From Salinigranum rubrum (GTDB lineage Archaea > Halobacteriota > Halobacteria > Halobacteriales > Haloferacaceae), in assembly GCF_002906575.1 (NCBI RefSeq), contig NZ_CP026309.1, positions 2,418,001-2,482,000 of the forward strand: a stretch of 64,000 nucleotides of DNA, in the 5' to 3' direction. The position numbers were made by a program, and so were the translations under genes. Under the pieces are notes generated by a model. The model searched no databases. It was not told where the DNA came from and saw nothing but the letters and a program-made list of their open reading frames with translations. Positions 56,439 through 60,250 of this stretch are shown here, piece after piece (the stretch's first letter is position 1; each line of letters begins with the position of its first letter).

Positions 56439-57581
56439 TCAGTCGACGACGCCGCGGGCGATGATCTCCTTCTGTATCTCGGAGGTGCCCTCGTAGATGG
56501 TGAGTATCTTCGCGTCGCGGTAGAAGCGCTCGACGGGGAAGTCGGTGGTGTAGCCGTAGCCGCCGTGGACCTGAACGGCCTCGTTGCAGACGTCCACGGC
56601 AGACTCGCTCGCGAAGTACTTCGCCATCGCCGCCTCGGTGCGGGGGTCCGCACCCCTGTCGGCCCGCTCGGCGGCCGCCCGGACGAGTTGCCGGGAGGCG
56701 TGGACCTTCGTCGCCATGTCGGCGAGTTTGTGCCTGATGGCCTGGATGTCGGCGATGGGGCCCCCGAACTGCTCGCGGTCTCGAGCATACGAGACGGCCT
56801 CGTCGAGCGCCGCCTGCGAGAGGCCGACCGCCTGCGCCGCGATGCCGATGCGGCCTCCGGTGAGGATGTGGAACGCCGCGGAGAGCCCCTTCCCCTCCTC
56901 GGTGAGGCGGTTCTCCGCCGGGATTCGGACCCCGTCGAACGTCAGCCCCGTCGTGTCCGACGCCCTGAGACCGAGTTTGTGCTCCTTCTTCCCGACTTCG
57001 ATGCCGGCCGATTTGGGGACGAGGAACTGTGTGATGGAGGAGTCGTCGTCCGGGTCGGTCTTCGCGAAGACGATGCAGACGTCGCCGCGCTCGCCGTTCG
57101 TGATCCACTGTTTCTCCCCGTCGATGACGTACTCGTCGCCCTCCTTTCTGGCCGTGGTCGTCATCTCCGCGGGGTTCGACCCCGCGTCCGGTTCCGAGAG
57201 GGCGAACATCCCGACCGGCCGACCCGTGGACATGTCGGGGAGGTACTCCTCTCTCAACGCCTCGCTCCCGAACTCGGCGATGCAGGAGGTGGCGAGGCAG
57301 TGGACCGACAGCGCCGTCGCCACGGCGAGGTGGCCGTAGGCGACCTCCTCGTTGACGACGCTGTAGGTGAGGCGGTCGGCGTCGTAGCCGCCGTACGCCT
57401 CGGGCGTCGTCAGGCCGGTCAGGTCCAGTGCGGCGAGTTCGTCCCACGCCTCCTCGGGGAACGTCTCGGTGGCGTCCGCCTCCCCGGCCCCCGGACGGAG
57501 TTCCTCGACGGCGAACCCGCGGACGACCTCACGGACGGCTCGCTGCTCCTCGGAGAGCGAGTCCGACGCTGCCAGTGTCAT
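56439..57581 (-). CDS. Acyl-CoA dehydrogenase
   Basis: A 380-residue flavoenzyme of fatty-acid or branched-chain acyl-CoA oxidation. MFALSEPDAGSNPAEM and WITNGERGDV are the two family signatures; GGYGYTTDFPVERFYRD and IYEGTSEIQ near the end carry the FAD contacts and the catalytic base (Glu364). The length and all motifs are normal. It stands alone, next to the HAD gene on the same strand (58 bases). Acyl-chain specificity is not readable. Confidence 0.93.
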   Translation of the reverse strand: MTLAASDSLSEEQRAVREVVRGFAVEELRPGAGEADATETFPEEAWDELAALDLTGLTTPEAYGGYDADRLTYSVVNEEVAYGHLAVATALSVHCLATSCIAEFGSEALREEYLPDMSTGRPVGMFALSEPDAGSNPAEMTTTARKEGDEYVIDGEKQWITNGERGDVCIVFAKTDPDDDSSITQFLVPKSAGIEVGKKEHKLGLRASDTTGLTFDGVRIPAENRLTEEGKGLSAAFHILTGGRIGIAAQAVGLSQAALDEAVSYARDREQFGGPIADIQAIRHKLADMATKVHASRQLVRAAAERADRGADPRTEAAMAKYFASESAVDVCNEAVQVHGGYGYTTDFPVERFYRDAKILTIYEGTSEIQKEIIARGVVD

Positions 57582-57676: not shown

Positions 57677-58810
57677 CTACCGGTCGCTGGGTTCCTGCGG
57701 TACCTGTCCGTGCGGCTTCTCGGCCGTTCGCTGGTTCTTCAGGTCGAGGACGTTCCGTTCGAGCGTCTCCAGTGCGGTCGACAGCGCGTCGGCCGCGCCG
57801 TACCCCTCGCCGGTCCCGGCGACCTGGTCCTCGTCGGTGAACAGCCGTATCTGACACCGGAACAGCGACTGGCCGCGGAGTTCCTCGTCGTGCTTCTGGA
57901 AGTCGACCTGCGCGTCGATCACGTCCAGTTTCTGGTCCTTCTCGACGATGGCCTCGATGCGCCTTGGAACCTCCTCGCGCTCTTCGGTCCGGAGATACTC
58001 GGGGTTCGTCACCTGGACGTCGAGCCGTTCCGACTCGGCGACGACGAGCGCTTGGAGCACGTCCGTCTTCGAGATTACGCCGATCAGGTCGCCGTGAGTA
58101 TCGTCGGTGACGACCGCGAGTCCGTCGTAGCCCGTCTCCAGCATCCGCTCGACCGCCGACTGGACCGTCCGGGTGGGAGTCGTCGTCTCCGCGGGACGGC
58201 TCATGACGTTCTCGACCGGCAGTTCGAGCAGGTCGGCCTTCTCGCCGCCGCGGTCGCCGGCCGACGGTGCCTGCGCGCTTCGAACGACGAACTCGACGAG
58301 GTCGTCCGTCGTCGCCACGCCGACGAGGTCCCCGTCGTCGAGAACCGGCAGCCGAGTGAGGTCGTTCTCGCGGAGGTCGTTGACGAGTTCGCCCATCGCC
58401 GTCTTGCGGTCGACCGTCGCCGGTTCGGTCGTGTAGACGTCCGCGACGTCGATCGCCGAGAGCGAGTCCGACACGGCTCGAAGCAGGCTGTCTCGGGTGA
58501 CGACGCCCCGAAATGCCTCGCCGTCGAACACCGGGGCGATCGTGGTCTCGTTCTCGACGAGGAGGCGAGCGACCTCGCGGACGCCCGTCTCGCTGTCGAC
58601 CGCCGGAACGCGCCGCTGGATCGACTGCACCTCGGCGTCGTCGCTCAGCCGCGACCGGAGGAGGTCACGCGGAAGCACCGCGCCGGTCACGTCCTCGTCG
58701 ACGACCAGGACGGCCTCCGTCGTGGCCGTCTCCAGTTCGGAGCGAACCGCACCGACGCGTGTCTCTGGCTCGGCAGTCTCGTACTCCTGAGTTACCATCG
58801 ACTGCTCCAT
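57677..58810 (-). CDS. CBS-domain protein fused to a ribosome-hibernation (HPF/S30AE)-like domain
   Basis: A 377-residue soluble protein. Four CBS units (about 10-65, 68-120, 125-180, 200-260) include IAPVFDGEAFRGVVTRDSLL and LAVVTDDTHGDLIGVISKTD. A C-terminal domain (about 268-362) begins RLDVQVTNPEYLRTEERE and ends DALSTALETLERNVLDLKNQ, which resembles the beta-alpha-beta-beta-beta-alpha fold of HPF/YfiA. CBS domains usually sense adenine nucleotides, so this protein could couple energy charge to ribosome hibernation. ATGs at 58810 and 58798 are both possible. Confidence 0.75.
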   Translation of the reverse strand: MEQSMVTQEYETAEPETRVGAVRSELETATTEAVLVVDEDVTGAVLPRDLLRSRLSDDAEVQSIQRRVPAVDSETGVREVARLLVENETTIAPVFDGEAFRGVVTRDSLLRAVSDSLSAIDVADVYTTEPATVDRKTAMGELVNDLRENDLTRLPVLDDGDLVGVATTDDLVEFVVRSAQAPSAGDRGGEKADLLELPVENVMSRPAETTTPTRTVQSAVERMLETGYDGLAVVTDDTHGDLIGVISKTDVLQALVVAESERLDVQVTNPEYLRTEEREEVPRRIEAIVEKDQKLDVIDAQVDFQKHDEELRGQSLFRCQIRLFTDEDQVAGTGEGYGAADALSTALETLERNVLDLKNQRTAEKPHGQVPQEPSDR

Positions 58811-58892
58811 GGGTGTGTCCCGGTCGAGGTGGAAACGGAATCAACCATCGGCCTGCACGCGAAAGCAACCTCGTAGTAGTCAGACATACAGA

Positions 58893-58911
58893 CATATTAC
58901 TCCCCGGGAGT
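58893..58911 (+). promoter_or_regulatory. TATA box overlapped by a perfect inverted repeat
   Basis: CATATTA (58893-58899) lies about 26-32 bases before the ATG at 58925. Just after it comes ACTCCCCGGGAGT (58899-58911), a perfect 13-base palindrome. A protein bound there would block transcription, so this is a candidate repressor operator. Confidence 0.55.
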
Positions 58912-58924
58912 GTACTATCCAGGT

Positions 58925-60250
58925 ATGCAGCGGAACGCCCTCATCGTCGCCGGACTCGTCGTCGTCGCGTCACTGGCCGGAGCCCCTGGGACCGCCCTCG
59001 CCCAGTCGGACGACGAACTGGTGACGTTGACAATCGAGGTGGTGAACCCCTCGTCGAACCAGCGGCTCGGCGGCGTGACGCTGGTGGCGACCTGGAACGG
59101 AGGAGAAGAACGAGTCACGACGGCGTCGAACGGCCAGGCGCTCATCGACGTTCCCGAGGCCGCGACCGTCGAGATAACCACCGACGACGACCAGTACACC
59201 CGCAACGAGCCGTACCGAATCCGCGTCGCAACCGAGCGGTCACACACCATCGAGGTGTCGCGGAAGGCCGACCTCGACGTGGTCGTCAACGACGCGGAGG
59301 GACCGGTCGCGAACGCCCGTGTCACCCTCTCGCAGGACGGGGTCGAGGTGGTCAGCGGCCGAACCGACTCCGACGGCCTGTACCAGTCGGGGACGGTCGC
59401 ACAGGGCGAGTACACGCTCGCCGTCGTGAAGCCCGGCTACTACCGCACCACGCAGGATATCGTCGTCGCCGGGTCGCCCGAACGGACGGTCTCCATCGAA
59501 CGCGGCCGCGTCGACTACGACGTCGTCGTCGAGGACCCCCACTTCGACCCGGCGCGACCCGTCGCGGACGCGACCGTCTCGGTGCAGGGGGTCGGCGAGG
59601 TCCAGACGGACGACAACGGGGCGGCGACGCAGCTCCTGCCCGTCAACAGCCGGCTCGAAGTGACCGTCTCGAAGGAGGGGTACGAGACGGCCACCGAGAC
59701 GGTCACGACCAACGAGAGCGAGAGCTCGCTCGTCTTCGAACTCAGCCGTGAGGCGACCCTCTCGCTCACGCCGGTGAACACGCGGGTCGTCGTCGGCGAA
59801 GTCGTCCCCGTCGAGGTGACGAACGCCTACGGCGAACCGGCGTCGGGAGTGACGGTCCGACTCGACGGCGAGGCGGTCGCACGGACGGACGAGAACGGCC
59901 GCGCGACGGTCCGCATCGAATCGGGCGGCGAGCACGAACTGACCGCGCGCGGCGGCGGGGCGACGTCCGAGGCAGTGACCGTCCGGGGTGTCGGCGAGGG
60001 TGGGGAGACGGCTACCGCAGAGACACAGGAGACGACGGAGCCCGAGACCACCCGTGCGACGACCGCTCCGGCGGGTGACTCCGGTCCCTCCCCGCTCACC
60101 ACGTTCGGACCGCTCGTCGTGGTCGTACTCCTGATCGCGGTCGGTGCGGCGTACCTCTACCGACGGCGACGCGACGACGCGCCCAACCCGTGGGCCGACG
60201 ACGAGGAGGAAGAAGAGCCGGAGGCGGACGACGACGACGAGATGTGGTAA
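58925..60250 (+). CDS. Membrane-anchored surface protein with carboxypeptidase-regulatory-like repeats
   Basis: A 441-residue protein. A signal sequence (ALIVAGLVVVASLAGAPGTALA) precedes four or so CarboxypepD_reg/PEGA-type beta modules, each with 'V.v.d..g.pv..a.Vtv...g....t...G'. A Thr/Glu linker follows, then a membrane helix (TTFGPLVVVVLLIAVGAAYL), and a basic then very acidic cytoplasmic tail (EEEEEPEADDDDEMW). It is probably displayed on the outer surface; the function is unknown. Confidence 0.75.
   Translation: MQRNALIVAGLVVVASLAGAPGTALAQSDDELVTLTIEVVNPSSNQRLGGVTLVATWNGGEERVTTASNGQALIDVPEAATVEITTDDDQYTRNEPYRIRVATERSHTIEVSRKADLDVVVNDAEGPVANARVTLSQDGVEVVSGRTDSDGLYQSGTVAQGEYTLAVVKPGYYRTTQDIVVAGSPERTVSIERGRVDYDVVVEDPHFDPARPVADATVSVQGVGEVQTDDNGAATQLLPVNSRLEVTVSKEGYETATETVTTNESESSLVFELSREATLSLTPVNTRVVVGEVVPVEVTNAYGEPASGVTVRLDGEAVARTDENGRATVRIESGGEHELTARGGGATSEAVTVRGVGEGGETATAETQETTEPETTRATTAPAGDSGPSPLTTFGPLVVVVLLIAVGAAYLYRRRRDDAPNPWADDEEEEEPEADDDDEMW

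Follow-up and report, generated by a model that had tools for sequence, protein, structure and literature searches.

The window, by which we mean the whole 64,000-nucleotide stretch that was analysed, carries on its minus strand, at positions 57677 to 58810, one intact and uninterrupted open reading frame of 377 codons. The product (hereafter, the window protein) and its surroundings are laid out as follows:

56439..57581, minus strand: acyl-CoA dehydrogenase, left edge of a site that is empty in sibling genomes
57677..58810, minus strand: hibA paralogue, 377 aa, four CBS domains and an HPF/RaiA-like domain (reading frame, Pfam, sequence matches, fold)
57722..58030, minus strand: HPF/RaiA-like domain, about residues 261-363 (prediction and structure searches)
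57872..57895, minus strand: residues 306-313, KHDEELRG, with D308 and E310 instead of the lysines K311 and K313 of the canonical HEHKEKLRG
58037..58216, minus strand: CBS4, about residues 199-258, nucleotide motif S247xxD250 retained (Pfam, motif table)
58217..58273, minus strand: CBS3-CBS4 loop, residues 180-198 (...GDRGGEK...), equivalent of the PTC loop of HibA (alignment)
58274..58453, minus strand: CBS3, about residues 120-179, nucleotide motif T167xxD170 retained (Pfam, model, motif table)
58460..58630, minus strand: CBS2, about residues 61-117, motif TRDS (Pfam, full-length model, motif table)
58631..58810, minus strand: CBS1, about residues 1-60, ligand motif degenerate (LPRD) (Pfam, motif table; borders approximate, from the full-length model)
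58811..58909, no strand: divergent intergenic region of about 100 bp upstream of the hibA paralogue
58910..60250, plus strand: membrane protein (carboxypeptidase-regulatory-like repeats), bounding on the right the site that is empty in siblings

The N-terminal part of the window protein is a tandem of four CBS stretches, as detected by Pfam PF00571 (E = 4e-32); the NCBIfam matches were likewise to CBS only, and far under their cut-offs. The full-length model was of moderate quality (pLDDT 69), and its CBS module was structurally nearest to archaeal four-CBS proteins, including the ribosome-bound Dri of Pyrobaculum and the SriA-D proteins of M. acetivorans. These share with the window protein a type of module that has been seen on ribosomes, but they lack an HPF domain. 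In particular, Dri comprises two CBS modules (eight CBS domains) and no HPF, whereas the window protein has a single four-CBS module followed by HPF, and hence is not a Dri protein. Rfam gave no match near the upstream intergenic region, a sigma-70 promoter scan returned nothing (its consensus is bacterial and not meaningful for archaea), and no phage match to the window protein was found.

Because a fold search with the whole protein returned CBS matches only, with the CBS module filling the list, we predicted and searched the C-terminal domain by itself. Pfam had left the final ~120 residues unmatched. Predicted in isolation, from an alignment that included one distant relative, residues 257-377 gave a mean pLDDT of 82.9 and a pTM of 0.74, with a predicted order of strand-helix-strand-strand-strand-helix (E8-12, H19-35, E41-55, E58-69, E73-81, H83-107). 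Foldseek placed HPF/YfiA/RaiA/pY-type chains at all of ranks 1-28. In VIA-align, the best 33 neighbours were hibernation factors (Z from 13.4 to 8.2), headed by E. coli HPF 6h4n_x (Z = 13.4, rmsd 2.0, 94 residues), and the first unrelated rows, YcaO and dsRBD, appeared at Z of 7.6 and lower. The earlier note had called the protein four CBS units fused to an HPF-like domain and had named a fold unrelated to S30AE as the outcome that would speak against it; prediction, Foldseek and VIA-align all favoured the domain call, which, together with the four Pfam stretches, proved right. The bacterial S30AE profile, Pfam PF02482, did not match the window protein and matched nothing in the genome at E ≤ 10, and it did ring in the Haloferax volcanii control; the sequence similarity to bacterial HPF is therefore remote. 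Bacterial HPF/YfiA/RaiA proteins thus have the fold of the C-terminal domain in common with the window protein (Z up to 13.4), but no CBS module and a sequence too distant for PF02482 to detect the window protein.

This architecture is a published one. HibA was defined in Nat Commun in 2026 as four CBS domains plus an HPF/RaiA domain, present in 47% of archaeal genomes (PMC13324472), and a CBS protein with a ribosome-hibernation-factor domain, HVO_2384, equal in size to the window protein, was reported from Haloferax volcanii in 2025 (PMC12607858). The fusion itself is hence already known, and the novelty that the earlier note implied for it does not hold. The whole window protein matched PDB 9l96_a at E = 9e-63 and P. 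abyssi HibA (Pab0961, Q9UYR4; PDB 9sr9, chain H, and other entries) at E = 1e-25 over residues 7-356, a homology that spans both the CBS and the HPF-like parts, while the C-terminal part alone still found the same two chains by sequence, at E = 1e-18 and E = 0.005, respectively. The domain order is identical in P. abyssi HibA, which also shares the CBS3-CBS4 loop, the nucleotide motifs of CBS3/4 and the family-wide residues of the HPF domain; the loop reads GDRGGEK in the window protein and GELAGEK in P. abyssi, in the length class of canonical HibA, and corresponds to residues 190-207 (the PTC loop) of the latter (PMC13324472). The PDB molecule name of 9sr9_H, an entry that belongs to the HibA paper (PMC13324472), is 'Dehydrogenase', perhaps a relic of an IMP-dehydrogenase misannotation. 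In a maximum-likelihood tree of 68 proteins, the window protein fell among haloarchaeal HibA. The window gene is a divergent member of the known HibA family.

For this family, ribosome hibernation was shown with HibA of P. abyssi and T. barophilus (PMC13324472). In idle 70S ribosomes, the HPF domain of P. abyssi HibA sits inside the mRNA/tRNA channel of the 30S subunit, its CBS module takes three positions on the 50S subunit, and the protein inhibits translation in vitro; deletion of hibA in T. barophilus led to slower recovery and a smaller 70S pool (PMC13324472).

The window gene is not the only hibA of its host. The genome (4.97 Mb) also carries a canonical HibA of 380 aa (C1:3341166-3342251) that is 41% identical to the window copy, and all 129 good-quality genomes sampled in the family had at least one strong HibA match. 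The tree resolved haloarchaeal HibA into two clades, one with the canonical copies and the other made up of paralogues of ~400-415 aa (the tree's 9l96 and P. abyssi rows were assembled from HMMER alignments, without 12 residues of the 9l96 loop and without the P. abyssi termini). The window protein grouped, with a support of 100/100, with the copies of genomes G235 (61% identical) and G338 (56%), a group that adjoins the copies of G373, G355, G193 and G174 and forms with them a sister branch to the canonical copies. Each of these six genomes holds a second copy, left out of the tree, that is 41-43% identical to the window protein, i.e., at the canonical level, which marks the window branch as a paralogue and not a replacement. 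The branch is rare: of 293 genomes from the order, 7 had it at E ≤ 1e-92, and an eighth match (G363) is placed by the tree among the canonical copies. Within the window's own family, none of the 147 genomes besides the host's had a match above 47% identity, and the one match that passed a similar cut-off (G047) was again placed with canonical copies. A contig scan of genomes for relatives of the window protein yielded one distant match only, in a Woesearchaeota. Evolution in the branch appears fast, with a length of 0.57 leading to the P0001/G235/G338 group and tips of 0.37-0.61, compared to mostly <0.3 for canonical tips, and two other genera retain the open frame, with identities of 56-61%. 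What is new is thus a haloarchaeon with a second, divergent HibA copy from a rare paralogue branch beside the standard one; the main text of the HibA-defining paper does not discuss several copies in one genome (PMC13324472).

We also compared the insertion site with that of congeners. In two of them (G027 and G048), the flanking genes lie ~100-150 bp apart with no HibA in between, and a third (G064) has an unrelated alpha/beta hydrolase at this place (L125:367-1125, on G064:C2), so that this appears as a small variable site that contains the hibA paralogue, the hydrolase or, in two congeners, nothing. Given this variable site and the fact that the nearest relatives belong to another family, a horizontal gain is favoured over repeated loss, and the window copy was probably acquired horizontally. 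No compositional sign of foreign origin was seen in the gene, whose GC of 0.68 and GC3 of 0.88 fall within those of its neighbours (0.67-0.72 and 0.82-0.92), which points to an old transfer or to one from a similar genome. The close relatives in G235, G338, G373 and G193 showed no conserved gene neighbourhood.

The closest relative of solved structure, by sequence, sits on another branch of paralogues, in which the CBS3-CBS4 loop is longer. Chain a of PDB 9l96 is WP_004060604.1 of Haloferax mediterranei plasmid pHME505 (L111:4986-6206; identical over the 378 residues compared, both 406 aa), and the same protein is chain a in 9l98, 9l9c and 9l9v. All four entries also contain haloarchaeal uL2, and the best PDB matches did not include any uS7 from haloarchaea, which suggests large-subunit particles carrying a HibA of the second clade. 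Such particles, apparently free 50S with HibA, would be unlike P. abyssi, where no 50S:HibA complexes were observed (PMC13324472). Copies of this clade (e.g., L060, L063 and L065) have a CBS3-CBS4 (PTC) loop that is ~13-19 residues longer, rich in glycine and serine and ending in GGFGxRxG, and that may bind differently at the peptidyl-transferase centre. Haloarchaeal megaplasmids commonly carry HibA paralogues (41 plasmid records, e.g., L109:5965-7173 and L110:5965-7200), and one tight group (e.g., L065-L069 and L071-L075), with branches of 0.03-0.11 across genera, looks recently spread between genera.

The window copy diverges most visibly in its HPF domain. The residues shared by P. abyssi and the haloarchaea are retained in the window copy (among them E309, R312, G313, L316, R322, G334, E335, G338, A346 and E351), but the canonical H301, R303, H305, K308, K310 and R324 are lost from it. 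The net charge of the domain is -10 (-9 and -14 in the related G235 and G338 copies), against +3 in P. abyssi; 23 canonical haloarchaeal copies average -1.2, with values from -4 to 5. With an acidic domain and canonical residues lost, the affinity for the ribosome could be reduced or altered. Most 380-aa copies carry two lysines at 311/313 within HEHKEKLRG. HVO_2384, a protein that is not part of the 68-protein tree, was reported to be acetylated at K311 and K313 (PMC12607858). By motif and numbering (KEK), we infer these to be the canonical lysines, with D308 and E310 of the window copy at the matching positions. The change to D308/E310 could make binding to the 30S subunit weaker or free the protein from acetyl control. 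The 9l96 protein, apparently ribosome-bound, has a similar segment (QKHDEKLRG, compared to QKHDEELRG in the window protein), so that the change in this segment need not abolish ribosome association.

For nucleotide binding, the alignment revealed a [TS]xxD motif at CBS3 and CBS4 in 65 of 65 haloarchaeal family members and in P. abyssi, which is usually degenerate at CBS1 and CBS2 in the same set. This pattern fits the single nucleotide per module, bound at the CBS3/CBS4 interface, of P. abyssi HibA, whose CBS module binds AMP, ADP and ATP with Kd values of 12, 65 and 113 uM (PMC13324472). Since the window protein retains T167xxD170 and S247xxD250, and the P. abyssi module binds adenylates, adenylate binding by the window protein is likely.

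Taken together, we consider it very probable that the window protein is an accessory paralogue of the archaeal ribosome-hibernation factor HibA, a reading within which ribosome binding, the conditions of use and any nucleotide effect stay presumptive. It is supported by the full-length matches to 9sr9_H and 9l96_a, the HPF fold, the CBS neighbours and the residues and motifs kept, as well as by the conserved frame, the canonical second copy, the empty site in siblings and the cryo-EM and deletion results published on the family (PMC13324472); the acidic C-terminal domain, the lost canonical residues, the moderate full-length model and the negative PF02482 search speak against it. A rival reading is a neofunctionalised paralogue that kept the HibA fold but lost ribosome silencing, and that would combine adenylate sensing with another partner (e.g., an acetyltransferase or replication/recombination proteins) or form mixed complexes with canonical HibA. 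The acidic shift, the loss of canonical basic and His positions and the faster evolution are consistent with this scenario, as are non-ribosomal partners of relatives, namely an inactive variant (Y154A) of the acetyltransferase Pat2 that co-purifies with HVO_2384 (PMC12607858), and RadB/GINS/GAN, reported for Pab0961 (PMC3820547). However, every family-wide conserved residue of the HPF domain is kept, and the apparently ribosome-associated 9l96 protein carries its similar segment in another branch, so that we regard a loss of ribosome silencing as quite improbable. Least credible of all is a newly arrived gene that is functionless now and heading to decay: its presence is sporadic and its site variable, but the frame is full length and free of stops, GC and GC3 are host-like, and core residues are conserved at 56-61% identity to relatives.

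A separate regulatory claim, compatible with an accessory paralogue, is that AMP or ATP on the CBS module directly switches ribosome binding on or off, in line with the earlier note's statement that nucleotide levels would control ribosome silencing directly. The invariant CBS3/CBS4 motifs and the preference of the P. abyssi module (AMP > ADP > ATP) agree with such a switch. However, native P. abyssi complexes contained no nucleotide, addition of AMP or ATP at 5 mM hardly altered the three conformations, and neither had a clear effect on ribosome binding (PMC13324472). That assay was at equilibrium, without competition by tRNA or mRNA, and is thus not conclusive against a switch; direct control nonetheless finds no support in the published data and is unproven, and we hold it to be unlikely.

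As an accessory HibA paralogue, the window protein would keep idle 70S ribosomes intact and blocked, as transferred from P. abyssi HibA. One adenylate, preferably AMP, could sit between CBS3 and CBS4 and could tune the availability of the protein or its choice of partner. The host retains its canonical single-copy HibA and carries a divergent second copy, probably gained by horizontal transfer, perhaps for other conditions or for use without acetyl-lysine control. More speculatively, and with a rather low probability, haloarchaeal hibernation might have two tiers: a conserved chromosomal HibA with acetylatable K311/K313, and horizontally moving paralogues with altered RNA-facing residues, which would comprise the rare branch of the window copy and another, large branch, in part carried by plasmids and perhaps acting on free 50S subunits. 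If so, the acidic residues at the lysine positions would uncouple the window copy from acetyl-CoA signalling or shift its ribosomal target.

HibA, in which ribosome silencing is coupled to a module that senses energy, ranks with the most widespread of the known hibernation factors of archaea. The remaining interest of the locus lies in a divergent, sporadic and probably horizontally acquired paralogue and in the wider set of accessory haloarchaeal HibA genes. The co-occurrence of canonical and divergent copies in one genome makes the roles of the CBS module and of lysine acetylation testable in the genetically tractable Haloferax.
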